Shown: positions 29,790-54,927 of the stretch, piece after piece | How the letters are laid out: every line of letters starts with the position of its first letter | Numbering within the stretch: position 1 is the first letter of the stretch | Source of the DNA: Chthoniobacterales bacterium | GTDB lineage: Bacteria; Verrucomicrobiota; Verrucomicrobiia; Chthoniobacterales; JAATET01 | Reading direction: 5' to 3' | Assembly: GCA_015655545.1 (NCBI GenBank) | Contig: JAATET010000071.1 | Span: 85,390 to 149,389, forward strand | DNA: 64,000 bases | The notes under the pieces: generated by a model | The model's input: the letters and a program-made list of their open reading frames with translations, nothing else | Database searches by the model: none | Told to the model about the DNA's origin: nothing | Position numbers and translations under genes: made by a program

Positions 29790-29921
29790 GCCCTCGACGC
29801 TTGCAGCCCGGAAGTCGCGCGCCTATGGGGCGATCCCCACATTCACTGTGTAGAAACCATTGGAGGTTCCGTGAAACAGCCGATTGCCAGCCGAGAGCTT
29901 CAGCCGTTATTGGAGATCTGG

Positions 29922-32900
29922 CTACCGCGTGCGGGTGACGGTGATCTTCGCGGGAGCGGAGTCGCCGCCGGGACCGTGGGCGGTGACGGTGATTTTGTTT
30001 TTGCCTGGCTTGAGCTTCCGGGCGGTGAATTTCCACGCGGAGGTGCCGGTGGCTTGCTTCGGCTTGGCTTTCTTGCCGCTGCCGATCTGGTAGGTGACGC
30101 TCGTCACCGGGCCTGTCGTGTGGCCCGCGATCTTGATCTTCGCTTTGTCGGTGGTGCGTTTTTTCGCGCCGGCGATGGTGAGCGTCGGCTTGGCGACGCT
30201 CTGGGGCGTGTCGGTGCCGGGGAACGCTTCTTCCGGAATCGGCTTGCCGACCGCGCTGATGCTGAAGCGGAGCAGGCCGGCGCTGTCGGCCTGGTAGGCT
30301 CCGCCGCCGGGCTGGATGGTGATGTCGGCTCCGTCGCCGGCGGCGGTCGGCGTGGTGGTGACGTTGTAGCTGGTGCCGGGGGTGAGGCCGCAGATGTAGT
30401 GCTTCCCGGGAATGGGCGGCGCGGGGTAGGTGGTGCCGGTGAAGGTGCCGCTCACGGCGGCCTTGGCATCGACGGGAAACAGGACGGTGGAGGTGCCGAG
30501 GGTGACGCCGTCGAAGGCGGCGCCGGATGTGCTGGCGAGGCGGCCGGGCACGATGCGGTCGGCGGCGGTGTCGGTGCCCTGGAGGACGTGGAGGAACCGG
30601 ACGTCAGTGGGGTTGCTCGGGTCCTCGACGACGAGCCGGCCAACGGAGGGCTCGAGCCCCGCGATGATGGTGATAGTGTGCTTGTTATTCGCGTCGAGTT
30701 CAGAAACGTAGCTCACCGTAGCGGCGGCGGGCAGCATGGTCTGCACGGTGAAGTGCTGGCCGCCCGGGGTGACGGCGGTAGCGAGCTTCCTGGTGGCATC
30801 GATCGTGGGGACGACGGTGAGGCAGAGATTAAACCGCTTGAAAAGCCCCGGGTGGAGGCTCGTGGCGCGGTCGTAGACGACGGCGATGTCGGGCGCGTCC
30901 GTGGAGGCAGGCCGCAGCCACACGACGGAGCGGCTGGCATTCTGGATGTCGGTCAGGACGTTGCCAGCGACGAAGGGGTCGGCGTGGTTGAAGAGCAGCG
31001 TCATATCCGTCTGCGCATAGGCGTAGTCGGGACCAGTGGTGGCAAGGGTGACGGGGTCGCCGGCGTTGCCGCCGTTGTTGTATTGCGAGCCGAGCGCGAA
31101 GAAGGTCTTGAGCCGCGAGTCGGTGAAGGGCGGCGTGCCGGTGGAGGACCAGTTCTTCAGCGACAGGGTGTTGTGCCAGAGCGTCGATTGGCCGACGTTG
31201 TAGCCGTCGTAGTTCGAGAGTTCTTTGGTGAGCCACTCGCCCTTGCGGTAAAGCTCGAACTGGCCGCCGTCGCAGTTCTGGTGATTGATGGTGATGTAGC
31301 CGCTGCGGAAAGTGAACATGCTGGCCTGCGGACCCCAATCGGTGCGGCTGAGCAGCCGGCCCATGCCGGGATCGTAGAAATCGACGGGCAGGCTGGGGCG
31401 CGGATCCGTCGGGGTGAGTGCGGCGGGGTCGGTGGGGTCGAAGAGCAGGAAGTAGACGATCGACTCGCTGGTGCCGTAGGGGTTCTGGACGCGGGAGATG
31501 AGCTTCGCGGCGCCGCCCTCGACGCCGTGGAGGGCGAGCCAACGAGCGGCCTGGAGGTGGGTGGTGAGTCCCCTGCTCTGCTCGTTGAGCGCGATCAGGG
31601 CGAAGTTCAGCATGAAGTCGGGGCTGACATAGATGCGGAGGGAGTCGCCGAAATTCGCGATCTGATACACGGGGCCCATGTAGGCGAGGCCGAGGGGCAC
31701 CTGCGCGGCGGGCACCATGGTGGAGAGGAAGCCGTGAATGTAGCGGTCCCACACCGGGGCGCCGATGAGGGCGATTTGCTTGCCGCTGATCGCGGGGTCG
31801 TCATACCCGGCGGTCTGGAGCGCGAGGAGCTGGCCGAGGGTGTAGGCGACGGCGTGGCTGTAGAACCCGCCCTCGGGGGCGATGCCGCCGCTGGCGAGGC
31901 CGACGTCACTATCGGCGGGCAGACCGGGGTAGGCGGCGCGCACGGCGGCTGGCTCGCCGAGCATGGAGTATTGCTGGTAGAGCCAGGCGCCGGTGGCATT
32001 CGCCAGATAGCTGCGCAGGGTGTTGCCGAGGATGGCCTCGGGCTTGGCGGCATCGAGCGGCGGGTCGTCCGCGGGATCGAGCGCGAGGGGCATCATGGTA
32101 ATGAGGCGGGCGTGGTTCTCGTAGAAATTGTTGGTCGCGACGCGGCGGGCCTTGCCGCCGGGTAGGAGCGCAGTGCTGTTCATCACGCCCACGGGCTCGG
32201 GGTGGCCGGTGATGTCGGGGACGACGGCGTGGAGGCAATCGTCGGCCCACAGCATGAAGACCTGGCGGATAATGGCCTTATCCTGCGCGGTGAGGATGGT
32301 GACGGGCTGGCCGTTCGCATCGGTCACGCCCTGGAGCCAGTCGACGACGAGCGGCAGAGCCTCGCCGATGCCATTCTGGCGCTCGCGGAGGGCGAAGAAG
32401 GGGTCTCGGAAGGGCTGCCCGGCCGCGTGGCCAAGCTTCGCCAGGTTCATCTGATACATGAGGAGGTCGCGCGCGTAACCGGCGTAGGTCGCGCGGGCGG
32501 CGGGGTCCGGATCGATAAGGGCGAAGAAGGCGAGGATGAGCGCGTGGTGGTCGCTCACGAGATCGTAGTTCGCGGGGGAGTTGCCCGAGAGGTTCGAGCC
32601 GGAGTAGCCGTAAACGTCGCCTTTGTCGGGATACGGCGAGGCGGCCTGGCCCGGGGAACCCGGTTGGCTATTCGGGAAGCACCACTGATGCGCGGTAATG
32701 GCGGTCTTGAGCGTCTCTCGCAGACCCTTTTGATAGACGTCGTTCCCCGTCACGGCCCAGCTCCGCAAGCGGGCGATGTCGCCCTTCGTCACCCACATGC
32801 GCGGGTGCGTCGCCACGGGCTGCGGGATGGGCGCGGGCGTGAAGTAGAGCGCGCTCACGCTCACATTGGCGGCGGGCATCTTGAACGTGGTCGTCGTGCT

Positions 32901-33152
32901 CGTGGCGCTGTCGAACGTGGCGTTGCCGGCCCAATTCTGGAACCACTGTCCCGCGGGCGCGGGGTTCGCCACGAGCGTGATGACCGCGCCCTGCGAGTAG
33001 TTCCCGCTCGCGGCGCCGTTCGCGGTGCCATTGGCGACAGTCACGGTGTAAGCGCCGGCCTGCGCGGCGAGCCCGGCTAGGGCCGCGAGCAGGGCGGCTG
33101 CGCGGCGGAGCTTGAGTGGGGATGGGTAAACTGCGCGGCGTGGTTTTTTCAT
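29922..33152 (-). CDS. Secreted heparinase/alginate-lyase-like protein with C-terminal array module
   Basis: Large ORF with THPRMWVTKGDIARLRSWAVTG..., HQNCDGGQFELYRKGEWLTKELSNYDGY, HNTLSLKNW (polysaccharide-lyase-like); ends LTIAGAKKRTTDKAKIKIAGHTTGPVTSVTYQIG...LKPGKNKITVTAHGPGGDSAPAKITVTRTR. Confidence 0.8.
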   Translation of the reverse strand: MKKPRRAVYPSPLKLRRAAALLAALAGLAAQAGAYTVTVANGTANGAASGNYSQGAVITLVANPAPAGQWFQNWAGNATFDSATSTTTTFKMPAANVSVSALYFTPAPIPQPVATHPRMWVTKGDIARLRSWAVTGNDVYQKGLRETLKTAITAHQWCFPNSQPGSPGQAASPYPDKGDVYGYSGSNLSGNSPANYDLVSDHHALILAFFALIDPDPAARATYAGYARDLLMYQMNLAKLGHAAGQPFRDPFFALRERQNGIGEALPLVVDWLQGVTDANGQPVTILTAQDKAIIRQVFMLWADDCLHAVVPDITGHPEPVGVMNSTALLPGGKARRVATNNFYENHARLITMMPLALDPADDPPLDAAKPEAILGNTLRSYLANATGAWLYQQYSMLGEPAAVRAAYPGLPADSDVGLASGGIAPEGGFYSHAVAYTLGQLLALQTAGYDDPAISGKQIALIGAPVWDRYIHGFLSTMVPAAQVPLGLAYMGPVYQIANFGDSLRIYVSPDFMLNFALIALNEQSRGLTTHLQAARWLALHGVEGGAAKLISRVQNPYGTSESIVYFLLFDPTDPAALTPTDPRPSLPVDFYDPGMGRLLSRTDWGPQASMFTFRSGYITINHQNCDGGQFELYRKGEWLTKELSNYDGYNVGQSTLWHNTLSLKNWSSTGTPPFTDSRLKTFFALGSQYNNGGNAGDPVTLATTGPDYAYAQTDMTLLFNHADPFVAGNVLTDIQNASRSVVWLRPASTDAPDIAVVYDRATSLHPGLFKRFNLCLTVVPTIDATRKLATAVTPGGQHFTVQTMLPAAATVSYVSELDANNKHTITIIAGLEPSVGRLVVEDPSNPTDVRFLHVLQGTDTAADRIVPGRLASTSGAAFDGVTLGTSTVLFPVDAKAAVSGTFTGTTYPAPPIPGKHYICGLTPGTSYNVTTTPTAAGDGADITIQPGGGAYQADSAGLLRFSISAVGKPIPEEAFPGTDTPQSVAKPTLTIAGAKKRTTDKAKIKIAGHTTGPVTSVTYQIGSGKKAKPKQATGTSAWKFTARKLKPGKNKITVTAHGPGGDSAPAKITVTRTR

Positions 33153-33191: not shown

Positions 33192-34913
33192 CTACGCGCG
33201 TCGAGTGTGCGCGGAGCGCCAGCGAGTGAGGGCGAGGATGCCGAGTGCGACGCCGAGGAGGCCGTAGGTGCCGGGCTCGGGCACCGCGGCATAGTTGAGC
33301 TGGAGGCTGTTGCCGACCTGCGAGAGTGTCCAGATGCTGCCGGGCTGGGTGGAGTTCGCGAAGCCGGCGAGGCCGATGGCGAATTGATCCGGGTCGAACG
33401 CCCAGCCGGTGGCGGCGGTGGCGATGATCCAGCTTTGGCTGAGGGCGGGGTCGAAGTGGACGGCGGCGCCGACGGCGGTGCCGTTCAAGGACTGGACGTG
33501 AATGGTGAACCTGGCCTCGGAGGTGCTGGTGATCGTGAGGGGGCCGCCGATGGAGAGGAAGTCCCAGCCCGCGCCGGCGGCGCCGGTCGCGTCGGCGAGA
33601 TTCCAGACGTATCGGCCGCCGGAGCCCCATGTCTCGGCGCCGGTGGTGAGGGTGGTGGGGAGGTAGCCGGCGGTGCTGCCGGAGGCGCCGGGGGAGATGG
33701 CGCCGCCGTCGAGGATGCTCAAGGGGCCGGTGATGCCGTGGCCGCCGAGGGTGCCCGCGCCCTGGATGACAATGGGCGAGCCGGCGGAAAGGGAGCCATG
33801 CACGATGAGCCTGCCTCCGGTGACGTTGGTGGGGCCGGTGTAGGTGCTCGCGCCGGTGAGGATGGTGGCGCCGGGGCCGGCCTGGGTGAAGCCGCCGTCG
33901 CCGCTGATGACGCCGCCGAGGGTGGTGGTAGTGCCGGCGCTCTGCCGGCCCTCGACGAGGCCGGCATTCGCGATGTTGTTGGGCAGGGTGGCGGTGGTGT
34001 TGAAGGCGAGTGTGCCGCCGGGGGCGATGGAGACGGCACTACTAACGAGGATGGAGCCGGCGGCGCCGTTGCCGATCTGCAAAGTGCCGGCGTTCACGGT
34101 GGTGGCGCCGGCGTAGGAATTCGTGGCGGTGAAGAGGGTGGTGCCGGGGCCGGTCTGGGTGAAGCTGCCTGAGATGCCGAGTATGGCGGCGGAGAAGGTG
34201 GTGGTGACGCCGGCGCTCTGGCGGCCCTCGACGAGGCCGTTGTTGTTGATGAAGCTGGAGTAGGTGCTCGGGGTATTGAAGGCCACGGTCGCGCCCACGG
34301 ACACGACGATGGCGTTGCTGGCGAGCGAGCCGGAAATGCCGTCGCCGATCTGCAAGGTGCCTTCGGTGACCTGGGTGGCGAAACCATAGGTATTCGCGCC
34401 GGTGAGGATGACGGTGCCGGGGGTGGTTTTCGTGAGCAGGGCCAGGCCCCCGAGGCTGGCGGAGACGGTGCCGGACTGAACCACGAAATCGGAGCCGCTG
34501 AGCGTGCCGCTGCCGATGATGGAACCGCCGGCGAGGGTGACGGCGCCGACGGTCTCGGTGTAGCCGGAGAGGTCGAATGTGCCGCCGGCGCCGATGGTGA
34601 GGGCGCCGGTATTGGCGATGCGCTCGTTGGCCGAGATGGCAAGGGTGCCGGCGCTCACGGTGGTGAGGCCGGTGTAGGTGTTGCTGCCGGAAAGGAAGAG
34701 GGTGCCGAGGCCGACTTTGATCACCTGGCCGTTGCCGCTGATGATGCCGCTCTGGATGGCGGTGCCGCTGGCGACGGAAAGCGTGATCGCGCCCGGCGCG
34801 GTGGTGGTGTAGTTGGTCGAATCGGCCAGGCCGTTCAAGTAATCGACGGTTTGCTGGGCGTGGAGCGAGGCGGCCGAAGCGAGAAACGCCAGGACAAGGG
34901 AATGTTTTTTCAT
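33192..34913 (-). CDS. Autotransporter-associated beta-strand repeat protein with PEP-CTERM anchor
   Basis: Repeated GANTYTGxTTVxAGTLQIG units; C-terminus AAVPEPGTYGLLGVALGILALTRWRSAHTRRA. Confidence 0.87.
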   Translation of the reverse strand: MKKHSLVLAFLASAASLHAQQTVDYLNGLADSTNYTTTAPGAITLSVASGTAIQSGIISGNGQVIKVGLGTLFLSGSNTYTGLTTVSAGTLAISANERIANTGALTIGAGGTFDLSGYTETVGAVTLAGGSIIGSGTLSGSDFVVQSGTVSASLGGLALLTKTTPGTVILTGANTYGFATQVTEGTLQIGDGISGSLASNAIVVSVGATVAFNTPSTYSSFINNNGLVEGRQSAGVTTTFSAAILGISGSFTQTGPGTTLFTATNSYAGATTVNAGTLQIGNGAAGSILVSSAVSIAPGGTLAFNTTATLPNNIANAGLVEGRQSAGTTTTLGGVISGDGGFTQAGPGATILTGASTYTGPTNVTGGRLIVHGSLSAGSPIVIQGAGTLGGHGITGPLSILDGGAISPGASGSTAGYLPTTLTTGAETWGSGGRYVWNLADATGAAGAGWDFLSIGGPLTITSTSEARFTIHVQSLNGTAVGAAVHFDPALSQSWIIATAATGWAFDPDQFAIGLAGFANSTQPGSIWTLSQVGNSLQLNYAAVPEPGTYGLLGVALGILALTRWRSAHTRRA

Positions 34914-34927
34914 AGGGTGTGGGCTGG

Positions 34928-34975
34928 TTATGGTTTGCGGGTGACGGTGAGTTTGTTTCTGCCGGGCTGGAACGG
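34928..34975 (-). pseudogene. Internally deleted relic of the C-terminal array module
   Basis: Minus strand reads FQPGRNKLTVTRKP*, equal to module end KPGKNKITVTAHGPGGDSAPARLTVTRKP with 16 codons missing between the two (I/L)TVT repeats. Confidence 0.75.
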
Positions 34976-34987
34976 GCCTTTGATTGG

Positions 34988-35090
34988 GGAAACGCGTTGC
35001 GCCGGGTTGGAAACGCGTTGCACCGGGTTGGAAACGCGTTGCGCCGGGTTGGAAACGCGTTGCGCCGAATTGGAAACGCGTTGCGTTTGG
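34988..35090. repeat. 21-bp tandem repeat, ~5 copies
   Basis: GGAAACGCGTTGCGCCGGGTT repeated at 34988, 35009, 35030, 35051, 35072 (last partial); each carries the palindrome AACGCGTT. Confidence 0.95.
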
Positions 35091-35635: not shown

Positions 35636-37018
35636 CTAGGGCTTCCTCGTGACGGTGAGCCGCGCGGGGGCGGAGTCGCCGCCGGGGCCGTGCGCGATCG
35701 CGGTGATTTTGTTTTTGCCGGGCTTGAGCGCGGCCTTGAGGCTCCACGAGGCGGTTCCCCTCGCCTTCACGGTTTTCCTGCCGATCTTGGCCGTCACGCT
35801 CGTCACCTGCCCCGTGGCCTTGCCCTTGATCGTCACCTTCGCCTTCGCCGTGGTGAGCTTCTTCGCGCCGGTGATCTTCACCGCCGGCCTGGCGGCGGGC
35901 GCGGGCGGCGGCACGACCGTCTTTACGGGGCGGAGCAGGAAGCCGAGCTGCGTGGTGCCGTCGGGCGCCGTGCCGTAGCCGCAGATCTCGCCGGCGGCGT
36001 TGATGCCGGTCGCCTCGGTATCCGTCCAGCCGGAGTTCGGCACGAGGTCGTCGAGGTCGTAGAGCGTGCCTCCCGTGTAGAGAAAGACACGCGACCCATT
36101 GTTGTCTGACACGGTTCCCACGACCTGCCCCGAGTCGTTGATGCCCGCCGCGTAGCTGTCGGTGCCGCTCGGGAGGTCGCCCAGCTCGCGCATCTTCGGC
36201 GTGGCTTTCTCGTCGTAGAGGAACGCGCGCTTGGTGGCATCGCCGGCCGGCCGGGAGACGCCGACGATTTGCCCGGAGCCGTTGATCGCCGTCGCCTCGC
36301 TGCCGCTGCCGCCGAGAGTGCCCAGCTCCGCCGGAGGGGGGCGCACGCCGTGCGAGCCGGGCAGCCAGCGCACGGCACGGCGAACGACGAAATTGCTCGA
36401 GGAAGATGTCGCGCCGACGACCACCCCCTGGTCGTTGATCGCGGCGGCGGCAGAATAGGGAACGCCCGCGACGGCGGGCAGCGCGACCATCCCCCCGGCG
36501 GCCGTCCAGATAAATGCGCGATTCTCGCTGCCGACGTAGGAATACCCGACGACGGCCCCGCTTTTGTTGATGCCGCGGGCCTCGCTCGCGAGGTAGCCCG
36601 CCAGGTAATCCCCTTGATTGGCGGCTGGCGCACTGGGGGCGGTAAGGCTGCCGAGCGTGGCCATCGCGCCGCCGGCGGGCACGAGAATGGCGCGCAGGTT
36701 GCCGCTGGCCGTGGCGTTCGACGAGCCGGCGAGCTGCCCGGCGGCGTCGATGGCAAACGCGAAGCACAGGTCGCCAGTGCCGGGCAGGCTGCCGTGGTAG
36801 GCGAGCTTGCCGTCGCGGCTCCAGAGGGCGCCTTGACCAAGATTCTCGGTATCGTAGGAGTTCCCCGCCATCTGCCCGGAGGCATTGATGGCATTTGCCT
36901 GGCTAAAGCCGCCGCCGAGATCCTCAAGCGGGATGAGCGTGTAACGCGGCGCGGCGGCTTGGGCGAGGCCGAGAGCGCCAAGAAATGCGAGGGCGTGGGC
37001 GAGGAATGGGGTCTTCAT
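35636..37018 (-). CDS. Secreted HAF-repeat protein with C-terminal array module (K-subtype)
   Basis: Signal peptide MKTPFLAHALAFLGALGLAQAA; AINDQGVVVGATSSS / AINGSGQIVGVSRP repeats; VKITGAKKLTTAKAKVTIKGKATGQVTSVTAKIGRKTVKARGTASWSLKAALKPGKNKITAIAHGPGGDSAPARLTVTRKP. Confidence 0.88.
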   Translation of the reverse strand: MKTPFLAHALAFLGALGLAQAAAPRYTLIPLEDLGGGFSQANAINASGQMAGNSYDTENLGQGALWSRDGKLAYHGSLPGTGDLCFAFAIDAAGQLAGSSNATASGNLRAILVPAGGAMATLGSLTAPSAPAANQGDYLAGYLASEARGINKSGAVVGYSYVGSENRAFIWTAAGGMVALPAVAGVPYSAAAAINDQGVVVGATSSSSNFVVRRAVRWLPGSHGVRPPPAELGTLGGSGSEATAINGSGQIVGVSRPAGDATKRAFLYDEKATPKMRELGDLPSGTDSYAAGINDSGQVVGTVSDNNGSRVFLYTGGTLYDLDDLVPNSGWTDTEATGINAAGEICGYGTAPDGTTQLGFLLRPVKTVVPPPAPAARPAVKITGAKKLTTAKAKVTIKGKATGQVTSVTAKIGRKTVKARGTASWSLKAALKPGKNKITAIAHGPGGDSAPARLTVTRKP

Positions 37019-37032
37019 GGGCGTGGGTTTTT

Positions 37033-38475
37033 CTATTTGCGGATGACGGTGAGGCGCGCGGGGGCGGAGTCGCCGCCGGGGCCGTGGGCGATCACGGTGA
37101 TTTTGTTTTTGCCGGGCTTGAGTGCGGCCTTGAGGCTCCAGCTCTCGGTGCCTTTCGCTCTCACAGTTTTCTTCCCGACTTTGGCGGTGACGCTCGTTAC
37201 CTGCCCCGTGGCCTTGCCTTTGATCGTGAGCTTGGCCTTCGTCGTGGTGAGCGCTTTCTTGCCGGTGATCTTCACTGCCGGCCTGGCAGCGGGCACGGGC
37301 TTCGGCGGCGCGGCTGGCTCCAGGGTGGCGCGCCAGGCTTCGTCGTATCCGTTGTGGCGGCCGACGCCGACGATGACCTTGCCGTCGGCGCTGATGGCGG
37401 TGGCGGAGGTGAGCGTCCACCCGGCGAGGTCGATGCCGGCGGCGGCCAGCACCTCGGGGATGGAGCGCATGCCGTGCTCCGCGTCCCAGACGAAGGCCTC
37501 GTAGCCGCTTTCAACCGCGCCCTGGCCCACGACGATCGCGCCGTCGGCCGAGACGCCGTCGGCCGAGCTGTTGAAATCCCCGCCGGGCAGGTCACCGAAA
37601 CCCACCATGCCGTCCCCCTGCGTCCAGCGGAAGGCCTCGTAGCCATCGGCGCCAAGGCCGCCGTAGCCGACCACGACATTGCCATCGGCCGAGACCGCGA
37701 AGGCGGAGCTGTCGGAGATGCCGACGGCGAGATTGCCGAGGCCCACCATGCCGCCGGCGGCCGTCCAGCGGAAGGCCTCGGTGCCATTCACGACGTGGCT
37801 CTGGCCGACGACCACGCTGCCATCGGCCGAGACGGCATAGGCGTAGCTCTCGGGCGTGGCGCTGGGCGCGATCTCGCCCAGCCCCGTGAGGCCCACGAGT
37901 GCATTCACCCACCGGAAGGCCTCGATTTTGCCGCTGGCGCTGTAGCCGACGACGACCTTCCCATCGGCGGAGACGTCGGTGGCGGAGCTGTAAAACGTGC
38001 CGCCGGGGAGATCGCCCAGCCCCACCATCGGCCCGCCCACGACGAGGCGGAAGGCAACGGTGCCACTCGCGCTCGTGCCATAGCCGACGATCACGCTGCC
38101 GTCGGCCGAGACCCCGGAGGCGGAGCTCTCGAAGCCGCCGTTATCGAGGTCGCCAAGGCCCGCCATGCCTCCGGCGGCCGTCCAGCGGAAGGCCTCGATG
38201 CCGTTCCCGCTGTAGCTATCGCCGACGATCACGCCGCCATCGGCCGAGACGGCGGAGGCGTAGCTCCCGACGGGGCCGTCGTCGAGGTCGCCCAGCCCCG
38301 TGAAGGTGGCGGCGCGGCCGAGGGTGAGCGTGGCCGCCGCGAGGGCGGCGAGGAGGAATGGGGTGAGTGAGGTCTTGCCTCCCGGCCACGCGGAAGTCTT
38401 GCCCTGTGGTTTGGAATGCGCTGTGGGGGAGAAGGGGCCCCCTCCCCTTCTGGCGCTGGCGTTCATGGTTTTCAT
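37033..38475 (-). CDS. Secreted HAF-repeat protein with C-terminal array module (K-subtype)
   Basis: Repeated GLGDLPGGxFxSSAxxVSADGxVVVGxSxSxxGxEAFRW; module VKITGKKALTTTKAKLTIKGKATGQVTSVTAKVGKKTVRAKGTESWSLKAALKPGKNKITVIAHGPGGDSAPARLTVIRK. Confidence 0.88.
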   Translation of the reverse strand: MKTMNASARRGGGPFSPTAHSKPQGKTSAWPGGKTSLTPFLLAALAAATLTLGRAATFTGLGDLDDGPVGSYASAVSADGGVIVGDSYSGNGIEAFRWTAAGGMAGLGDLDNGGFESSASGVSADGSVIVGYGTSASGTVAFRLVVGGPMVGLGDLPGGTFYSSATDVSADGKVVVGYSASGKIEAFRWVNALVGLTGLGEIAPSATPESYAYAVSADGSVVVGQSHVVNGTEAFRWTAAGGMVGLGNLAVGISDSSAFAVSADGNVVVGYGGLGADGYEAFRWTQGDGMVGFGDLPGGDFNSSADGVSADGAIVVGQGAVESGYEAFVWDAEHGMRSIPEVLAAAGIDLAGWTLTSATAISADGKVIVGVGRHNGYDEAWRATLEPAAPPKPVPAARPAVKITGKKALTTTKAKLTIKGKATGQVTSVTAKVGKKTVRAKGTESWSLKAALKPGKNKITVIAHGPGGDSAPARLTVIRK

Positions 38476-38501
38476 AAGGTGAGTGGATTTGTTGTGCTGC
38501 C

Positions 38502-40067
38502 CTATTTGCGGATGATGGTGAGGCGCACGGGCGCGCTGTCCCCGCCGGGGCCGTGGGCGGTGACGGTGAGCACGTTCCTGCCGTGCTTCAGCGCGGCCTT
38601 GAGGCTCCACGAGGCCGTGCCTTTGGCCTTCACGGTTTTCCTGCCGAGCTTCGCGGTGACGCTCGTCACCTGCCCCGTGGCCTTGCCCCGGATCGTGAGC
38701 TTCGCCTTCGCCGTGGTGAGCTTCTTCGCGCCGGTGATTTTCACCACGGGCGCGGGGATTACGGGGTCGGGCACGGCGGTGGCGAGGTAGCGGGCGACGG
38801 TAAGGGTGGCGCCGCCGCTCTCGCCGGCGGCGAGGATGTCGCCATTGGGCTGCAGGGCGAGGCTGGTGATGCCGCCGCCGGTGCCGACGGGGGTCTCGAC
38901 CTTGCCGCCCGCGCCGAAGCTGGCGTCCAGCGCGCCATCGGCGGTGTAGCGCGCAAGCGCGAAGCCGCTATTCCCGGACTGGGTGTGCCGGGCATAGCCG
39001 CCGGCGAGGATCCTGCCATCGGGCTGGATGGCGAGACATGCAACGCCGTCGTCGAACCCGGCGAAGTCGGTGGTGACGCGCCCGCCGTCGCCGAAGGTGG
39101 TGTCGAGCACGCCGGCGGCGGTGTAGCGCGCGAGCGCGAAGTCGGTCACGCTGTCGCCCGCCAGGCCCGCGACGAGGATCTTCCCTCCCGGCAGCACAGC
39201 GATGGCGGCGGCGTAGGCCTCGCCGGTGAAGAAGGGCGTGGTGACGATGCCGTTCGTGCCGAAGCTGGCATCGAGCGTGCCCGAGGGCAGGTAGCGCGCG
39301 AGGGCAAACCGGTTGGCGGAGGAGATGTTCGCGTGGCCGGCGGCCACGATCTTCCCATCGGGCTGGATGGCCACGGCGAAGGCGGCGGCACTGTTGCCGC
39401 CGCCGGGGGCGGTGGTGAGCTTGCCCCCGGTGCCGAAGGCGGCGTCGAGCGCGCCTTTGTCGGTATAGCGGGCGAGGGCGAAGAAGCTGCTATTCGCCTC
39501 CCCTGCCCTGCCGGCGGCCACGACCTTCCCATCGGCCTGCACGGCGGCGGCGTAAAAATCCTCGAAGGTCTGGCCGAAGCTGGTCGCGACACCGCCGGTG
39601 CCGCCGAAGGCGGTATCCGCCGAGCCGTCGATCTCGCAGCGGGCGAGCGCGGCGTCGAAGTTCTGGACGGTGCTTTGATGGATGCTGCCGAGCAGCAGCA
39701 GCTTGCCATCGGCGGGGAAGGCCAGGTGGTTCGAAACGATCGGCAAGTCATACCCCGCGACCTTGAAAGAGCCGCTGCCCTTCTGGCCGCCGGTGCCGAA
39801 GGCGCCGTCGAGCGCCCCGCCGGGCGTGAGCCGCACCATGCCGCAACCGTTGCTGGCGGTGGCAGCGACGAGGAGCCTGCCATCGGGCAGGAGCCGGAGC
39901 TGCGGGGAACTCGCGCTGGTGACGCCGGCGAGGGTGACGACGGTCTTGCCGCCGCTGCCGAAGGTGGGGTCGAGCCCGCCGACGCCGATGGCGAAGGCGG
40001 GGCCCGCGGCGGCGGCGAACAGGCCTGCGAAGCAGGCATTCCTAAGGGCGATGGTGGCGGTGTGCAT
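38502..40067 (-). CDS. Secreted delta-60 repeat protein with C-terminal array module (K-subtype)
   Basis: Repeats FALARYTxxGxLDAxFGxGGKVxTxxGxGxxxxxLAIQPDGKIVAAG; module VVKITGAKKLTTAKAKLTIRGKATGQVTSVTAKLGRKTVKAKGTASWSLKAALKHGRNVLTVTAHGPGGDSAPVRLTIIRK. Confidence 0.9.
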   Translation of the reverse strand: MHTATIALRNACFAGLFAAAAGPAFAIGVGGLDPTFGSGGKTVVTLAGVTSASSPQLRLLPDGRLLVAATASNGCGMVRLTPGGALDGAFGTGGQKGSGSFKVAGYDLPIVSNHLAFPADGKLLLLGSIHQSTVQNFDAALARCEIDGSADTAFGGTGGVATSFGQTFEDFYAAAVQADGKVVAAGRAGEANSSFFALARYTDKGALDAAFGTGGKLTTAPGGGNSAAAFAVAIQPDGKIVAAGHANISSANRFALARYLPSGTLDASFGTNGIVTTPFFTGEAYAAAIAVLPGGKILVAGLAGDSVTDFALARYTAAGVLDTTFGDGGRVTTDFAGFDDGVACLAIQPDGRILAGGYARHTQSGNSGFALARYTADGALDASFGAGGKVETPVGTGGGITSLALQPNGDILAAGESGGATLTVARYLATAVPDPVIPAPVVKITGAKKLTTAKAKLTIRGKATGQVTSVTAKLGRKTVKAKGTASWSLKAALKHGRNVLTVTAHGPGGDSAPVRLTIIRK

Positions 40068-40097
40068 AAATCGGTAGAGGCGAGGCGCGTGGTGGTG

Positions 40098-41462
40098 CTA
40101 GGGCTTGCGGATGATGGTGAGCCGCGCGGGCGCGGAGTCCCCGCCGGGGCCGTGGGCGGTGACGGTGAGCGTGTTTTTGCCGGGCTTGAGCTCGGCTTGG
40201 AATTTCCACGCTGCCGTGCCGTGCGCCCGCTTCGCCGGCCGGCTGCCGAGGCGGTAGGTCACGCTCGTCACCTGCCCGGTCGCCTTGCCCTTGATCGTGA
40301 GCTTCGGCTTCGTCGTGGTGAGCTTCTTCGCCCCGGTGATCTTCATCACGGGTGCGGCGGCAGTGAGTGTGGGCGTGGGGGGCGGTGGCGTGTAGGGCGT
40401 GAGGAGGAAGCCGTGGGCCTTGTCCTGCGGGTTCGTTCCCCGACCGACGATTTGTCCGGCGTTGTTGATGCTCGTCGCGCTGTGGAGCGTCCAGCCGCTG
40501 CCGGCGGGCAGGAGCTCGTCGAGATAGGTGACCTGCCCGTCGGTGATGAGGAACAGTCGAGGTTCGGTTTCGTCGCCGGCCGAAGTGTAGCCGATGATCT
40601 GGCCGGCGTCGTTGATGCCGGTGGCATGGCTGTCGATGCCGGCTGGGAAAGTGGCCACGGGCCGCATGCCCGCGCCGTCGTTCTGCCAGAGGAAGGCGAC
40701 GAAGTGTTCCGTGGATGAGGTGACGAAGGAGCAATAGCCGACGACCTGCCCGGGGTTATTGATCGCCGTGGACTCGCTATAGGCGGCGAGCGTGGGGAGC
40801 GCGCCGAGGTCGGCGGGCTCCTTGGTCTTATCCGCGCCCCAGAGCACGGCGTGGCTGTTGCCGTCGGGGAGGGCCGTGCCTTTGGAGACGCCGACGGCGA
40901 GGCCCGAGTCGTTGATGGCGGCGACCTTCGGCCGATGGCCGCCCGCAAGCGGCTTCAGAGCCGCCATGCCGGCTGCTTTCGTCCAGTAGAAGGCTTGCTC
41001 GGTGTTGCCCATCTCGTTGGAGACTCCGACGACCTGCCCGAGATTATTGATGTCGAGCGCCTTGGCCTGGTTATCGCCGGGGAGGAACTCGATCTTGTTC
41101 GTATCGGCCAAGGTGCCGAGGGAGGCCATCGCGCCGCCTACCGGAGCAAGGACCGGCAAGGGGCCCGAGGAGCCGGCGACGGTGCCGGCGTCGTTGATGC
41201 CGTAGCCTTGGCTGTTGGTATCCGTGCCGAGCACGCCGAGGTCGGCGGGCGAGCCGCCCTCCGGGCTCCAGCGCGCGGCGTGCTTGGATGCGGAGCCTTG
41301 GTAATCGGTGGAGCCGGCCACCTGCCCGGAGGCGTTGATGGCCGAGGGGAAGACATCTCCTGCCGCATCGCCGATGGCACCGAGATCGGTGATGGTGTAT
41401 TGCGGCGTGGCGCCGTGGGCGAGGCCTGCGGCGGCGAGAAGGGCAAGGAGTGCGGGCTTCAT
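40098..41462 (-). CDS. Secreted HAF-repeat protein with C-terminal array module (Y-subtype)
   Basis: AINDSGLAVGVSKG / AINNPGQVVGYCSF repeats; module VMKITGAKKLTTTKPKLTIKGKATGQVTSVTYRLGSRPAKRAHGTAAWKFQAELKPGKNTLTVTAHGPGGDSAPARLTIIRKP. Confidence 0.88.
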   Translation of the reverse strand: MKPALLALLAAAGLAHGATPQYTITDLGAIGDAAGDVFPSAINASGQVAGSTDYQGSASKHAARWSPEGGSPADLGVLGTDTNSQGYGINDAGTVAGSSGPLPVLAPVGGAMASLGTLADTNKIEFLPGDNQAKALDINNLGQVVGVSNEMGNTEQAFYWTKAAGMAALKPLAGGHRPKVAAINDSGLAVGVSKGTALPDGNSHAVLWGADKTKEPADLGALPTLAAYSESTAINNPGQVVGYCSFVTSSTEHFVAFLWQNDGAGMRPVATFPAGIDSHATGINDAGQIIGYTSAGDETEPRLFLITDGQVTYLDELLPAGSGWTLHSATSINNAGQIVGRGTNPQDKAHGFLLTPYTPPPPTPTLTAAAPVMKITGAKKLTTTKPKLTIKGKATGQVTSVTYRLGSRPAKRAHGTAAWKFQAELKPGKNTLTVTAHGPGGDSAPARLTIIRKP

Positions 41463-41469
41463 AAAAATG

Positions 41470-42744
41470 CTAGGGCTTGCGGGTGACGGTGAGTTTCGCG
41501 GGCGCGGAATCGCCGCCCGGGCCGTGGGCGATCACGGCGATCTGGTTTTTCCCGGGCTTGAGCGCGGCTTTGAGGCTCCAGCTCGCGGTTCCCCTCGCCT
41601 TCACGGTTTTCTTCCCGACTTTGGCGGTGACGCTCGTCACCTCGCCGGTCGCGCGGCCTTTGATCGTGAGCTTCGCCTTGTGCGTGGTGATCTTCTTCGG
41701 CCCGGTGATCTTCACCGTGGGCGCGGTGGATGGGATGGGCGTGAGGACGAAGCCGAGGTATTTGCTGCCATCGGTGGTGTAGTAGCCGGCGATCTGGCCG
41801 CTGGCGTTGATCGCGGCGGCGATGCTCTGAACTGTGCCGGGGGGCTCGGGCAGCCGCGCGGCAACGCCGCCCTGCCAGATGGTGGCGCGACTGACATGGA
41901 AGCCGGCGTCCGAGGAAGTGCCGACGATGAGGCCGGCGTCGTTCACATCGAATGCTGCGCTATTGGCGAAGCCGGCGACGGGGGGCAGCTTCGAGGGCTG
42001 GCCGGCGGCCCAGGTGCAACCGTAGGAGGTGTTATTCGGCAGGCTGTAGCCGCCGACGATGAGGCCGGATGCGTTGACCTTGCGTGGGGAGGCGGTCGTG
42101 GCGTTCGCTTCGGGAAGGGGTAGCGGGGCGAATACGCCGTTCAGCCAAGTGCAGGGGCGGGTCGGGGAGCCGTAGATGCCAATGACGAGGCCGGAGCCGT
42201 TGCCGCAGTAGGCGCCGGAGTCGGTGATGCCGGCCGGCACGGCGAGCGGAAAGGGTGTGCCGAGATACCACTGGACGGCGTGGATGCCAGTGGAGTCGTA
42301 GTAACTGCCGACCACGCGCCCGGCGCGACCGTATCCGTAGGCTTCGTTGCTGGTGACGCCGGCGGGCTTTGCGAAGGTCGATATCTCGCCGTCGAGCCAT
42401 AGGCACGCCGTTGAGATGATTTTATCGTCGTCGGTGGCGTAGCCCACGATGGCTCCGGCGGAGTCGATGGCAAGGGCGGCGTAGCTCTGGGTGGTGCCGG
42501 GGGGCAGCGGGAGCTTGGCGGGGATGCCATTCCTCCATACGCAGGGGCGCGAGGAGGTGAATACGCTGGCCTGCGAATAGTAGCCGGCGACGATGCCGGA
42601 GTCGTTGATGGCCTGCGGCACGACCGATGTGGCGGCGGGGTCGGGCGCGGGGAGGACGGTGATGGTGTATCGGGTGGCGGCGGGCGCGGGCTGGATCGCC
42701 GCGGCAAGGGTGGTAGCGAGGGCCATGATGTGGAGATGTTTCAT
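41470..42744 (-). CDS. Secreted HAF-like repeat protein with C-terminal array module (K-subtype)
   Basis: AINDSGIVAGYYSQ... CVWRNGIPAKLPLPPGTTQS repeats; module VKITGPKKITTHKAKLTIKGRATGEVTSVTAKVGKKTVKARGTASWSLKAALKPGKNQIAVIAHGPGGDSAPAKLTVTRKP. Confidence 0.86.
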   Translation of the reverse strand: MKHLHIMALATTLAAAIQPAPAATRYTITVLPAPDPAATSVVPQAINDSGIVAGYYSQASVFTSSRPCVWRNGIPAKLPLPPGTTQSYAALAIDSAGAIVGYATDDDKIISTACLWLDGEISTFAKPAGVTSNEAYGYGRAGRVVGSYYDSTGIHAVQWYLGTPFPLAVPAGITDSGAYCGNGSGLVIGIYGSPTRPCTWLNGVFAPLPLPEANATTASPRKVNASGLIVGGYSLPNNTSYGCTWAAGQPSKLPPVAGFANSAAFDVNDAGLIVGTSSDAGFHVSRATIWQGGVAARLPEPPGTVQSIAAAINASGQIAGYYTTDGSKYLGFVLTPIPSTAPTVKITGPKKITTHKAKLTIKGRATGEVTSVTAKVGKKTVKARGTASWSLKAALKPGKNQIAVIAHGPGGDSAPAKLTVTRKP

Positions 42745-42750
42745 GGCGGG

Positions 42751-44091
42751 CTATTTCTTGCGGGTGACGGTGAGGCGCGCGGGCGCGGAGTCGCCGCCGG
42801 GGCCGTGCGCGGTGACGGTGATTTTGTTTTTGCCGGGCTTGAGCGCGGCCTTGAGGCTCCAGCTCGCGGTTCCCCTCGCTTTCACGGTTTTCTTGCCGAC
42901 CTTGGCGGTGACGCTCGTCACCGCGCCCGTGGCCTTGCCCTTGATCGTGAGCTTGGCCTTCGCCGTGGTGAGCTTCTTCGCTCCGCTCACCTTCACCACC
43001 GGCGCGGCGGGCTTCGGCACGGGCGGGGGCGTGACCTCGGGGATGGGCGTGAGCAGGTATGCGTGGTCCGAGGGGGCGCCGGCGGGACGGTAAACGCCGG
43101 CGATCTGCCCGGCGTCGTTGATCGCGGTTACGGTGCTCTTCGTCCCATCCCCGCCTGGCTCGGGGAGCGGGGAGAATTCCCCGGCGAACCATGTGCAGGC
43201 ATGGCCGATCGCGCCGCCGGGAGCGACGCCGGAGGCGCCGACGACGCGGGTGCCGGCGGCATTGATCTTGTAGGTGTAGGTATTCCCCGCCCCGTCGGGG
43301 ACCGGCAGCAAGGTCGGCGGGGTGGTGGGCGTCGAGTTCGCGGGCCACACGCAGGGGCGCACCTCCCCGGCATCGGCGTAACGCCCCGAGACCTGCCCGG
43401 AAGCGTCGATCGCGGTGGCCGCCACCCCGGTGATCTGCCCCCCGGTGGGGCTCACCGGGTCGGCGAGCGGGGTGACCGTGGCGGTGGCGGTGGCGTCGGA
43501 CCAGATGCAGCCGTGGCTGCCGGTCGCATCCGAAAAATTCCCGAGTATCCTGCCGTCGGCGTTTACCCCGGAAGCGGTCGCAGAAGTGGCGCCCGCGGGG
43601 AGCGGGAGCGGGACAAAGGCGCCGCCTGTCCAGGCACAGGGGTGGAAAGGGCTGCCGTAGAAGCCGACGACCACGCCGGAGGCGTTGATCCCCCGGGCGA
43701 AGGAACTCATCCCGGCCGGGAGCTCGAGCACGGGTTCGGAGGCGCCGCCCCAGGCGTAGGCGTGGGAGCCGTTCGCATCCTGGACATACCCGACGACGAT
43801 GCCGGAGGCATTGACGCCGAAGGCGAAACTGTTGGTCACGTCCGCCGCCACGGGCAGCGGTGCGAAGGTCCCGCCCTGCCACTGGCAGGCGTAGGTAATG
43901 TTGCCCGAGGCTCTGTAATGCCCGACCACGACGCCCGAGTCATTCATGTCCCCGATGGTGATGATGGCATCCACCGGCGGGTCCTGGAACTCGGTGATGA
44001 GGTAGTTTTGCGCCGCGTGGGCGGCGGCGGTGAGGCCGAGCAGGCCTGCGAGACTGGCGATTCCAAGGGTGGTGCGGAGGGTGGTGTGCAT
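42751..44091 (-). CDS. Secreted HAF-like repeat protein with C-terminal array module (K-subtype)
   Basis: MHTTLRTTLGIASLAGLLGLTAAAHAAQ; DMNDSGVVVGHYRASGNITYACQWQGGTFAPLPVAADV repeats; module VVKVSGAKKLTTAKAKLTIKGKATGAVTSVTAKVGKKTVKARGTASWSLKAALKPGKNKITVTAHGPGGDSAPARLTVTRKK. Confidence 0.87.
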   Translation of the reverse strand: MHTTLRTTLGIASLAGLLGLTAAAHAAQNYLITEFQDPPVDAIITIGDMNDSGVVVGHYRASGNITYACQWQGGTFAPLPVAADVTNSFAFGVNASGIVVGYVQDANGSHAYAWGGASEPVLELPAGMSSFARGINASGVVVGFYGSPFHPCAWTGGAFVPLPLPAGATSATASGVNADGRILGNFSDATGSHGCIWSDATATATVTPLADPVSPTGGQITGVAATAIDASGQVSGRYADAGEVRPCVWPANSTPTTPPTLLPVPDGAGNTYTYKINAAGTRVVGASGVAPGGAIGHACTWFAGEFSPLPEPGGDGTKSTVTAINDAGQIAGVYRPAGAPSDHAYLLTPIPEVTPPPVPKPAAPVVKVSGAKKLTTAKAKLTIKGKATGAVTSVTAKVGKKTVKARGTASWSLKAALKPGKNKITVTAHGPGGDSAPARLTVTRKK

Positions 44092-44135: not shown

Positions 44136-44750
44136 TCAGCCGCCGTAGAGGACGCTCACGATGTCGCTGGGCTGGCCGATCTCCTCGTCGGCCACCACGC
44201 CCACGGCGCGGTATTCGCGCGTCTCGGGCGCGCCGGCGACGGCGAGCGGGCTGTCGTCGTCGAAGGGGAATTTCGTGCGGCGGGCGATGAGGAGCCGCCA
44301 CTCGGCCTGGCCCTTCAATCTTGTGTAGAGGTTCATGGCGCTGGCGCCGGCTTTGCGGGCCTTCAGCCGCACGTGGCCGAGGTGCGCCTCGGCGCCGAGC
44401 GCGGGCTTGTAGTGCTCGGCGTCGAACTCCCCCGCCCCGCCGATCACCTGCAAGTCCTCGCCGATGCCGATGGTGTAGGCGGGCACGGCCTTGAGGTGGC
44501 GGATGGCGGCGCGCAGCTTCGGCAACTGGTCGGCCTCGCTCTGGCGGAAGGCGCCGAGGGCGGCGTCGAGCTCGATCTCCTGGGCCATGAGGACGTCGAG
44601 CGGGGCTTGCAGGGCGGCGATCTCGGCAAGCAGCGCGGTGACTTGCGCGGGGGGCAGCCCGAGGGCCGGGCCGATGGTGGGGAGCTTCGCGGCGAGGTTC
44701 GCGAGCCAGTCGGAGAGGGCGGCGTGGGATTGCGGGATGTAGTCTGTCAT
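44136..44750 (-). CDS. Conserved hypothetical protein (204 aa)
   Basis: MTDYIPQSHAALSDWLANLAAKLPTIGPALGLPPAQVTALLAEIAALQAPLDVLMAQEIELDAAL...VVADEEIGQPSDIVSVLYGG; a relic of its 3' end recurs at 51785-51880. Confidence 0.75.
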   Translation of the reverse strand: MTDYIPQSHAALSDWLANLAAKLPTIGPALGLPPAQVTALLAEIAALQAPLDVLMAQEIELDAALGAFRQSEADQLPKLRAAIRHLKAVPAYTIGIGEDLQVIGGAGEFDAEHYKPALGAEAHLGHVRLKARKAGASAMNLYTRLKGQAEWRLLIARRTKFPFDDDSPLAVAGAPETREYRAVGVVADEEIGQPSDIVSVLYGG

Positions 44751-44879
44751 GGCGAGTTTGGGTGTTTGGGTTTTGGTGCTTGGTTTTGGTCTTCCTGGTG
44801 TCGGTTTATGGCTGCGAAATGGTGCGCGGGCGCGGCTGCCCGGCGCGGGCGCGAGGGAGAAAGCGGACGAGCGAGAGCG

Positions 44880-45938: not shown

Positions 45939-47405
45939 TCATTTGCGGATGACGGTGAGCCGCGCGGGCGCGGAGTCACCGCCCGGGCCGTGCGCGGTGA
46001 CGGTGAGTTTGTTTTTGCCCGGCTTCAGCGCGGCCTGGATGCTCCAGCTCGCGGTGCCTTTCGCTTTCTTCGCGGGCTTGCTGCCGATCCGATAGGTCAC
46101 GCTCGTCACCTGCCCCGTCGCCTTGCCCTTGATCGTGAGCTTCGGCTTTGTCGTCGTGAGGTTCTTTTTGCCGGTAATTTTCACCGTGGGCACGGCGGGG
46201 GCAGGAACAGGCACGACGATCTCGGTGGGGCTGAAGCGCAGCACGCGGTTGTAGCCCTGGTCGGCGATGAAGAGGCTGCCGCCGGGGCCGCCGCAGATCT
46301 GCCACGGATGGGAAAAATTGCGCTCGGAGGGGGACGCCGGGGCCCCGCCGGAACCGAGACCGGGCTGGCCGATCACGCGGGTGGCGCGGGCTCCGCTCGC
46401 CAGGGCAAGCGCGGCGGCGGGAAAGCCGAGCACCCGGTAGCCGGCGTAGTCGCTCACCCAGAGGGTGTCCTCGGCGTCGAGATAGACGCTGGTGCAGAGG
46501 TTCACGTGGGCGTCGTCGAAGGTGTCGCTGCCGGCGCTGGCGGAGAGGCCGGGCTGGCCGATCACGGCATCGGCCGTGCCGCCATTGACGGTGGCCGTCG
46601 CGGCGGCGTCGGTGAAGCGCAGCACGCGCGAGTTGCCGCTATCGGCGACCCACAGGCGGCCGGCGGCATCGGCGCACAGGCCGTAGGGGCCGTTCATGCG
46701 GGCGGGGCCGGTGGCGCCCTGGTCGGCATTCGCGCCCGGCTGGCCGAGCAGGCCGGTGGCGGGGGAGCCGGTGGTCTTCGAGGAGATATTCTTGAAGCAC
46801 AGTACGCGGTTATTGCCGTAGTCCGCCACCCAGAGCGTGTCGTCGGGGCCTACGGCCACGGCGGCGGGCAGATACATGCGGTCGAGCGCGGAGCCGGCGG
46901 TGGGCTGGCCGAGCACGATGGTGGCGGCGGGGCCGCCGGTGCCGTCGGGGCCGGTGCCCTGGACTCCGGCGGCGTGCTCGAAGCCGAGCACGCGGTTGTT
47001 GGCGCTATCGGCCACCCAGAGCCGCCCCTGGGCATCCAGGGTAATGGCGCGGGGGGCGGACAAGGTATTCGCCCCGGCGGCGCCGCCCTGGTTGGCATGG
47101 CCGGAGTTGGAGTTCTTCTGCCCGAAGGCGATCTCAGGCTCGGCCCCGCTCTGCGCGGCGGCCATGCTGGAGAAGCGCAGCACGCGGTTGTTGTCGCTGT
47201 CGCTCACGAAAACCTTGCCGGTGGCGGGGTCGCTGGCCACGCCGACGGGGCCGGCGAGGTAGGTGGACTTGTCGTCTTGCGCCATGCTCTTGAAATCGAC
47301 CTGGCCGAGCACGACGTCGGCGGGCTGGTAAGTCTGGATGCTGGCGCCGCGGGCGAGGCCGATGGCGCCGACGAGCGCGGCGAGGAGAAGGGTGGAGTTT
47401 TTCAT
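45939..47405 (-). CDS. Secreted NHL beta-propeller protein with C-terminal array module (Y-subtype)
   Basis: Repeats GRLWVADSGNSRVLRF / DTLWVADYGNNRVLCF; signal peptide; module VKITGKKNLTTTKPKLTIKGKATGQVTSVTYRIGSKPAKKAKGTASWSIQAALKPGKNKLTVTAHGPGGDSAPARLTVIRK. Confidence 0.9.
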   Translation of the reverse strand: MKNSTLLLAALVGAIGLARGASIQTYQPADVVLGQVDFKSMAQDDKSTYLAGPVGVASDPATGKVFVSDSDNNRVLRFSSMAAAQSGAEPEIAFGQKNSNSGHANQGGAAGANTLSAPRAITLDAQGRLWVADSANNRVLGFEHAAGVQGTGPDGTGGPAATIVLGQPTAGSALDRMYLPAAVAVGPDDTLWVADYGNNRVLCFKNISSKTTGSPATGLLGQPGANADQGATGPARMNGPYGLCADAAGRLWVADSGNSRVLRFTDAAATATVNGGTADAVIGQPGLSASAGSDTFDDAHVNLCTSVYLDAEDTLWVSDYAGYRVLGFPAAALALASGARATRVIGQPGLGSGGAPASPSERNFSHPWQICGGPGGSLFIADQGYNRVLRFSPTEIVVPVPAPAVPTVKITGKKNLTTTKPKLTIKGKATGQVTSVTYRIGSKPAKKAKGTASWSIQAALKPGKNKLTVTAHGPGGDSAPARLTVIRK

Positions 47406-47411
47406 GAGTGG

Positions 47412-48929
47412 TTATTTGTTTCCCAACTCTGCGGAAGTGTTGCCCCGTAGGTTGGGATGCGCTGCCGCGCGGGCAGTGCGGGTGAGGGTGAGCCGCGCGG
47501 GCGCGGAGTCGCCGCCGGGGCCGTGCGCGATGACGGTGATCTTGTTTTTGCCGGGCTTCAGCGCGACGGTGAGCTTCCACGAAGCCGTGCCCTTGGCCTT
47601 CCGCGCGGGCTTGCCGCCGATGCGGCAGCGCACGCCCGTCACCGGCCCCGTGGCGCGGCCCTTGATCGTGAGCTTCGCCTTCGCCGTGGTGAGCTTCTTC
47701 GGCCCCGCGATCTTCACCACGGGCGCGGCGGGGGCGGGCACGATGGTCTCGATGGGGCTGAAGCGGAGCACGCGGTTGCAGCCGGAATCGACAATGAGCA
47801 GGCTCTCCCCCGGCCCGCCGCTCACTTGCTCGGGCGTAACTATTTTGCCTGTCTCCAAGATGCTGCTAGTTCCCTCGAAGTTCGGCTGGCCGAGCACGGT
47901 GGCGGCGGGGGCGCCGGGGGCCAGGGCGGCGGCGGCGGGGAAGCCCAGCACACGGCTGTAACCCGCATCGCACACCCACAGGGTGCCCGCGGCATCGAGA
48001 TACACGCCGCGGCATTCATTCACATGGGTTTCATCCGTATCCGTGCCGGCGGCGCCGAAGGTGGACTGGCCGAGCAGGCCGCTGGCCTTCGCGCTCGTCC
48101 CGGTGGTGATCGCCGTCTTCGCCTTCGCCGCCGCGCCATCGAATCGGAGCACCCGGTGGTTGTATTTATCCGCCACCCAGAGCCGGCCCGCGGCATCGGC
48201 CCAGAGGCCGTGGGGATTATTCATCCCGCCGTCGCCGAGCGCGGGCGGGTTCGCCGTGAAGCTGGGCTGGCCGAGCACGCCATCGGGGGCGGCGCCGGTC
48301 GTCTTCGCCGAGATGTTGGCGAAGGCCAGCACCCGGTTATTGCCGGTATCCGCCACCCAGAGCGTGTCGTCGGGGCCGAGGCTCACCGCCTGGGGGAAAT
48401 TCATCTTGTCCTTCCCGATGCCTTGCCCGCCGCCGAGCACGATGCTCGCGGCAGGGCCGGGCATGGCGGCGGTGGTCGCCGCGAAGTAGCCGACCACGCG
48501 GTGATTACGCGTATCGGCCACCCACAGGCGGCCCTTGGCATCCACGGTGATGGCGCCGGGGCTATACAAGCCGCTCGCGACGGGGCTCGCGGTGTTGTCC
48601 TGGTTCGTCCAATGGGAGGTATAGTCCGGCTGGCCGAAGACCATGTCGGGGTCGAGGTGGGCCTCGGCGGCGGCGATGCTGGCGAAACGCAAGACGCGGT
48701 GGTTAAAACTATCGGAGACGAAAACCTTGCCGCTCGCGGAGTCGCAGGCCACGCCAAGCGGCATCGAAAAACGGTTCACCTGGCCGAGGTAGGCGTCTTT
48801 TGTCTTGAAATCGGGCTGGCCGATCACGCCGATGGCGGCCTGGCCATTCTGGAAGCTGCCGGCCGCGTGGGCGCCGCCCACGAGGGCGAAGGCGGCCAGG
48901 GAGGCGAGCGTGAGGAGAGTCGTTTTCAC
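47412..48929 (-). CDS. Secreted NHL beta-propeller protein with C-terminal array module
   Basis: NHL repeats; module VVKIAGPKKLTTAKAKLTIKGRATGPVTGVRCRIGGKPARKAKGTASWKLTVALKPGKNKITVIAHGPGGDSAPARLTLTRT plus tail ARAAAHPNLRGNTSAELGNK. GTG start. Confidence 0.9.
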   Translation of the reverse strand: MKTTLLTLASLAAFALVGGAHAAGSFQNGQAAIGVIGQPDFKTKDAYLGQVNRFSMPLGVACDSASGKVFVSDSFNHRVLRFASIAAAEAHLDPDMVFGQPDYTSHWTNQDNTASPVASGLYSPGAITVDAKGRLWVADTRNHRVVGYFAATTAAMPGPAASIVLGGGQGIGKDKMNFPQAVSLGPDDTLWVADTGNNRVLAFANISAKTTGAAPDGVLGQPSFTANPPALGDGGMNNPHGLWADAAGRLWVADKYNHRVLRFDGAAAKAKTAITTGTSAKASGLLGQSTFGAAGTDTDETHVNECRGVYLDAAGTLWVCDAGYSRVLGFPAAAALAPGAPAATVLGQPNFEGTSSILETGKIVTPEQVSGGPGESLLIVDSGCNRVLRFSPIETIVPAPAAPVVKIAGPKKLTTAKAKLTIKGRATGPVTGVRCRIGGKPARKAKGTASWKLTVALKPGKNKITVIAHGPGGDSAPARLTLTRTARAAAHPNLRGNTSAELGNK

Positions 48930-51784: not shown

Positions 51785-51880
51785 TCAGCCGCCGCAGAGG
51801 GCGCTCACGATGTCGCCGGGCCGGCCGATTGCCTCGTCGCCCCCCATGCCGGCGGCGCGGCATTCGCGCGTCCCGGGCGC
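51785..51880 (-). pseudogene. Relic of the 3' end of the 44136..44750 gene
   Basis: RECRAAGMGGDEAIGRPGDIVSALCGG* versus REYRAVGVVADEEIGQPSDIVSVLYGG*; DNA is alignable over ~90 bp. Confidence 0.8.
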
Positions 51881-54640: not shown

Positions 54641-54776
54641 AGAGGTCCGCACCCCGCCCATCCGCACGGAGAGACAACCAACGACGAATGGACGGGGGCG
54701 GAAGAGGAAAGCGCGACGAGCCACCGCCACGGGCGCGGTGGATGGATGGCGGGCGACTCGGTGCGAGAGTGAGAAG

Positions 54777-54880: not shown

Positions 54881-54927
54881 GCGCGGGCCGGCTCGCTGCG
54901 AGATGCCCAATCGCAGGTCATGATCGG

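Follow-up and report, generated by a model that had tools for sequence, protein, structure and literature searches.

Domain-limited gene conversion is known from mammals, where it has affected the two paralogues TLR1 and TLR6 by independent events in nine species (PMC2077338). Rhs proteins consist of a conserved core followed by variable C-terminal tips, and core and tip are decoupled, for which recombination has been proposed (PMC2935791). Long-lasting concerted evolution in prokaryotes has been described with genes as the units, paralogues within a genome being more alike than homologues elsewhere (PMC6053082).

Here we analysed a window of 64 kb (G000:C10:85390-149389, the whole stretch of DNA under study) from a 3.0-Mb genome in 134 contigs; the contig stops at the window's right edge. 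PEPCK gave mixed matches, most of them in PVC bacteria with Fuerstiella and Verrucomicrobium as the best, so that the organism would belong to the PVC group, probably to the Verrucomicrobiota. A run of secreted-type protein genes occupies the minus strand from 29.9 to 63.0 kb, and 17 open frames in the window all close with one common C-terminal module of ~83 residues. In most of these genes (named by their first coordinate) the ectodomains are otherwise different, and one, 54314, is approximately the tail alone. As in TLR1/TLR6, the C-terminal part of neighbours is kept alike and the N-terminal part diverges, with the boundary inside the gene; unlike that case of two paralogues with homologous ectodomains, this one concerns a bacterium, up to 17 copies and several unrelated ectodomain families, and conversion is a probable process rather than one shown by independent events in nine species. 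The locus resembles Rhs in having two protein parts with separate histories and dissociated fragments remaining in place, but in this array it is the C-terminal part that is conserved and shared, and the ectodomain that varies. With the concerted evolution of prokaryotic genes it shares copies that are more alike within the genome than homologues elsewhere, although the unit here is only an 83-residue domain and not the whole gene.

We put at about 0.7 the probability that the modules of this tandem array have been homogenised or exchanged as a domain, by gene conversion or unequal crossing-over. One domain of these bacterial genes tracks the genomic neighbourhood and the rest of each gene tracks its own family, a pattern backed by synonymous sites and by a second cluster, and domain-level homogenisation in tandem arrays thereby becomes testable. 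Gene trees of such proteins blend two histories, and the undescribed basic C-terminal module is a possible surface-retention domain.

The array, its modules and its ectodomains

The module genes, together with a remnant of a further module, are:

29922-33152, minus strand: large secreted protein with Flg_new_2 N-terminal domain; outer module 29928-30188
34932-34984, minus strand: what is left of an additional module after an internal deletion, reading FQPGRNKLTVTRKP
35636-37021, minus strand: HAF family A secreted protein; K-subtype module 35639-35887
37033-38475, minus strand: HAF family E protein; K-subtype module 37036-37281
38502-40067, minus strand: delta-60/DUF5122 propeller; K-subtype module 38505-38750
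40098-41462, minus strand: HAF family A protein within the K run; Y-type module 40101-40352
41470-42744, minus strand: short-HAF family B protein; K-subtype module 41473-41721
42751-44091, minus strand: short-HAF family B protein; K-subtype module 42754-43002
45939-47405, minus strand: NHL propeller, family C; module 45942-46190
47412-48929, minus strand: NHL propeller, family C, whole-gene duplicate of 50253; module 47475-47723
48936-50246, minus strand: family F ectodomain, whose homologue on contig C106 bears a different module; module 48939-49190
50253-51755, minus strand: NHL propeller, family C; module 50256-50534, which has short inserts close to its C-terminal end
52986-54317, minus strand: short-HAF-like family B protein; module 52989-53240
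54314-54802, minus strand: orphan module without ectodomain; module 54365-54613
55539-56876, minus strand: family F protein; diverged (outer) module 55542-55787
57252-58625, minus strand: HAF-like (DUF3466) family A protein; outer module 57282-57545, VTCKIGRKSGRVA
58632-59972, minus strand: family B protein; outer module 58635-58889
60045-63020, minus strand: long repeat protein with 342-nt tandem repeats; outer module 60096-60350

All-against-all comparison of the ectodomains gave family A (35636, 40098 and 57252; identity 39-42%), family B (41470, 42751, 52986 and 58632), family C or NHL (45939, 47412 and 50253) and family F (48936 and 55539), with singletons in 37033, 38502, 29922 and 60045 and no ectodomain in 54314. 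HAF repeats were matched in 35636, 37033, 41470 and 42751, and delta-60/DUF5122 in 38502; the literature that we found on these repeats held incidental mention only. The same ectodomain families also occur at dispersed loci, joined there to modules of their own.

Many of the array genes are separated by 6-nt gaps, and 42751 to 35636 make up one tightly spaced six-gene unit (gaps of 6-30 nt) with 42751 as its first gene. A 99-nt element lies just upstream of the first genes of two units, 42751 and 50253 (44136-44234 and 51785-51883, 87% identical), and could be a common promoter or leader; a non-module gene at 44136-44760 (MTDYIPQSHAALSDWLANLA...) separates two array units. An Rfam scan of the window returned zero RNA families.

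Elsewhere in the genome there are 18 dispersed, weaker module copies (28-81 bits, against 123-152 bits for those in the window). The three other genomes of the genus carry 13-19 copies each, order-mates have essentially none, and in a phylum-wide sample of 388 genomes the others gave at most 1-3 weak matches. Nearly every module protein of the genus carries the module at its C-terminus or very close to it. The same-genus genomes yielded distant homologues only and no syntenic or orthologous array; as synteny probes, the histidine kinase found only ~40% matches to many paralogues, and PEPCK none. As relatives yielded no array that is truly orthologous, the timing of events is relative only.

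AlphaFold models the module confidently as an all-beta, Ig-like fold (mean pLDDT 89), and Foldseek places this predicted model near glucodextranase domain B (1ug9; TMq 0.79, rmsd 1.8, 29% identity) and also close to FnIII/PKD-like domains. Glucodextranase domain B (PF09136; PDB 1ug9) and the bacterial Ig-like domains Big_7/Big_13 are similar in predicted fold and weakly similar in sequence, but the module falls below the Pfam cut-offs (for Glucodextran_B, 27 bits against a best score of 26.2 in 41470 and 13-21 in others), is C-terminal and very basic, and across the sampled genomes occurs in multiple copies in this genus alone. Its net charge is +14 to +20 (pI ~11.6), and the ectodomains are acidic (pI ~5.3). 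In the proteins scanned against Pfam or NCBIfam, the module was matched by neither PEP-CTERM nor type IX sorting-signal models. Most likely, the basic module would hold the protein on an anionic surface or matrix.

Module trees, the K-subtype and gene position

The sequence-only reading, whose list covered a few of the 17 module copies, held that five genes of the array share a K-subtype in spite of carrying HAF or delta-60 ectodomains. Read directly, the five motifs are as it described: VTAKIGRKTVKA in 35636, VTAKVGKKTVRA in 37033, VTAKLGRKTVKA in 38502 and VTAKVGKKTVKA in both 41470 and 42751, four of them behind HAF-repeat ectodomains and one (38502) behind a delta-60/DUF5122 one. Its observation that 40098 and 57252, with ectodomains related to that of 35636, are non-K also holds (VTYRLGSRPAKRA and VTCKIGRKSGRVA, respectively). 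Since 40098 sits between 38502 and 41470, the K run is interrupted and comprises five of six consecutive genes; by our own count, five marked genes of 17 fall within six consecutive positions in 61 of 6188 arrangements (0.01).

Separate phylogenies with a topology test, which the same reading had proposed, proved incongruent, with AU rejecting in both directions. When all ectodomain families were forced to be monophyletic in the module tree, AU gave p=8.9e-6, or p=0.002 with a 13-codon patch removed. Taken singly on the full module alignment, family A was rejected at p=0.0017 and family B at p=1e-4; without the patch A (p=0.03) and C (p=0.04) were rejected and B was not (p=0.10). Monophyly of C on the full alignment and of F within the window was not rejected by AU. 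In the other direction, the ectodomain alignment of A and B rejected a grouping of the K genes (p=2e-54) as well as that of the outer genes 57252 and 58632 (p=4e-6). Module distance across the 17 genes is unrelated to ectodomain family (r=0.02, p=0.38), as had been claimed. The larger tree was built with FastTree. Separate histories for module and ectodomain are well supported.

The K genes form a clade in the module nucleotide tree (support 96.3/96) that is gone once the patch, a single beta-hairpin in the AlphaFold model, is removed, and K monophyly is also not rejected without the patch (AU p=0.26). The K-subtype could therefore be a selected or convergent variant of this hairpin and not a marker of exchange between neighbours, a reading that we consider possible if somewhat unlikely: clade support and the PHI signal both hinge on the patch, and the patch corresponds to one structural element, yet the K genes have its codons in common and not its residues alone, and the decoupling from ectodomains outlives its removal. 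That subtype goes with immediate neighbours is a claim that depends on this single patch.

Gene position does matter at a coarser scale. Module distance is correlated with gene order over the 17 genes (r=0.43, p=0.0002); among the 12 core genes the effect is weak, with p=0.10 for gene order, p=0.07 for distance and p=0.03 for unit, and it disappears without the patch. The robust effect, then, is one of array core against array ends, so that the statement that subtype tracks gene position stands coarsely and not for fine neighbour order. The five least typical modules belong to exactly the array-end genes, 55539, 57252, 58632 and 60045 at one end and 29922 at the other, an arrangement that would arise in 6 of 6188 cases if random (our own count, for a test picked after seeing the data). 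In families A and B, the ectodomains of the outer genes have diverged from their core relatives no further than these have from one another. Diverged ends are what an incompletely homogenised tandem array predicts. Core modules are ~0.76 identical to each other and 0.41 identical to dispersed copies, including those with homologous ectodomains; array copies are more alike than the same part of homologous genes elsewhere, as in concerted evolution. In other parts of the genome, adjacency is seldom accompanied by module likeness, which counts against homogenisation: of ten pairs of adjacent genes with unrelated ectodomains, one showed it strongly (p=0.04).

Recombination inside the modules is weakly supported. 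PHI at short range gave p of about 0.002 or less in the core, 0.02-0.20 when the patch was excluded, and nothing significant on third positions only. A single conversion-like tract reached global significance, and it lies between 47412 and 50253, the whole-gene duplicates.

Synonymous codons, block edges and competing explanations

Whole-gene duplication would leave silent sites equally old in module and ectodomain. Core pairs from different families instead share 72.7% of the synonymous codons in their modules, where 52.9% would be expected from ectodomain usage or 57.3% from module usage, an excess that is stable whichever gene is dropped. Codon bias (GC3) as the sole cause of this sharing was rejected. 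Modules of the cluster and dispersed modules share 0.51 of codons (expected 0.45), and this closeness to expectation argues against a general constraint on silent sites.

Individual pairs behave differently. The modules of 41470 and 42751 agree in 84% of amino acids and in 78% of codons at conserved residues, and their ectodomains in 33% of amino acids and 50% of such codons, near the usage expectation; their silent-site breakpoint (p=0.001) falls at residue 269, the module beginning at 341. For 48936 and 55539, codon sharing is 74% in the module and 48% in the ectodomain, with a silent-site breakpoint at residue 347 (p=0.006) and the module start at 352. In the NHL pair 47412/50253 the two parts share codons equally (0.75 and 0.74) and there is no breakpoint, which marks it as an evident whole-gene duplication. 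The pair 41470/52986 shows the opposite trend (68% in the ectodomain, 61% in the module). Several related ectodomain pairs are near synonymous saturation, and in several gene pairs the module has a more recent ancestry than the ectodomains attached to it. Breakpoint scans on amino-acid identity were left out as evidence because a more constrained domain yields the same signal.

The edges of the similarity are sharp. Core pairs with different ectodomains are mostly 0.7-0.9 identical in the module (0.60-0.69 in the patch), and identity drops within about 30 nt upstream, to 0.56 in the 15 nt before the module and then to the background of 0.35; downstream, it is 0.38 past the stop codon and then background. 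The shared block is the module itself, from linker to stop codon. Core modules differ at roughly 20% of nucleotides, so homogenisation would be old or incomplete.

A second cluster, on contig C106, repeats the decoupling. Its homologue of 48936 has an ectodomain 51-53% identical (45% for 55539), but the modules of these two genes share only 37-40% identity. The C106 module is 67% identical to the one next to it, which belongs to an FG-GAP protein whose ectodomain is unrelated. Grouping by ectodomain was rejected for the C106 F pair (AU p<1e-15).

Homogenisation or exchange between neighbours, as first proposed from the sequence, is partly supported: the decoupling of modules from ectodomains is upheld (AU in both directions, a synonymous-codon excess in modules beyond that of most ectodomain pairs, edges at linker and stop, second cluster), with breakpoints within modules its weak side. 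In the array, unrelated or long-diverged ectodomains (HAF, delta-60, NHL and others) are joined to one basic Ig-like C-terminal module. As the likeliest process, homologous recombination between module copies would even out the modules of the array core, passing subtypes such as K among neighbours while the ectodomains diverge. Modules at the array ends would escape and look older, and the basic module would be retained for one common job.

The chief alternative is ectodomain capture: the modules would first have multiplied in tandem, and different ectodomains would afterwards have entered upstream of them or taken the place of earlier ones, the module staying where it was. It predicts module/ectodomain incongruence equally well, many genes abut at 6-nt gaps, and the orphan 54314, with a 50253-like leader and no ectodomain, resembles an intermediate or a deletion product. 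Capture requires, however, that old ectodomains were placed many times, precisely and in frame, between a stop codon and a module; these families are already joined to their own modules at dispersed loci, and capture alone leaves the divergence of array-end modules unexplained; we judge it unlikely. Whole-gene tandem duplication with faster ectodomain divergence, module identity reflecting stronger purifying selection, suits the NHL pair and the non-rejection of family C monophyly on the full alignment, but clearly accounts for that pair only and is otherwise very improbable, as module codons are shared where ectodomains of several of the same pairs approach saturation, and as AU contradicts the congruent trees it entails, jointly as well as for A and B (full alignment) and the C106 F pair.

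Orphan and remnant modules and neighbouring elements

The leader of orphan 54314 is 84% identical to that of 50253, and its frame overlaps the start of 52986. The remnant at 34932-34984 matches the module of 42751 at 87% over 47 nt (E 7e-10). Both would fit deletion via recombination between modules or leaders. A bolder extension of homogenisation, which we hold to be rather doubtful, is that the genus-specific basic Ig-like module is a common anchoring cassette, and that recombination between modules both homogenises tails and reshuffles ectodomains, which would yield novel surface proteins and leave decapitated modules behind.

Adjoining the remnant, 34988-35085 holds 4.7 copies of a 21-nt tandem unit, GGAAACGCGTTGCGCCGGGTT. 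A leader or intergenic element, ATGGTTTCTAC...GATCGGCACATAGGCG, is common to 29799-29860, 52098-52262 and 54690-54900 at 83-84% identity; contig C64 has a weaker copy, and Rfam gave no match. It could encode a conserved C-terminal peptide, DGFYTVIVVIGT.

Beside the array, 33192-34913 encodes a protein of PATR repeats that bears a PEP-CTERM signal (Pfam), and 28536-29789 resembles it by eye, with a possible PEP-CTERM-like end. At another locus (L094:8180-11338), one frame runs without a stop from a PATR protein whose end is PEP-CTERM-like into a second protein that is complete, comprising signal peptide, F ectodomain and module.
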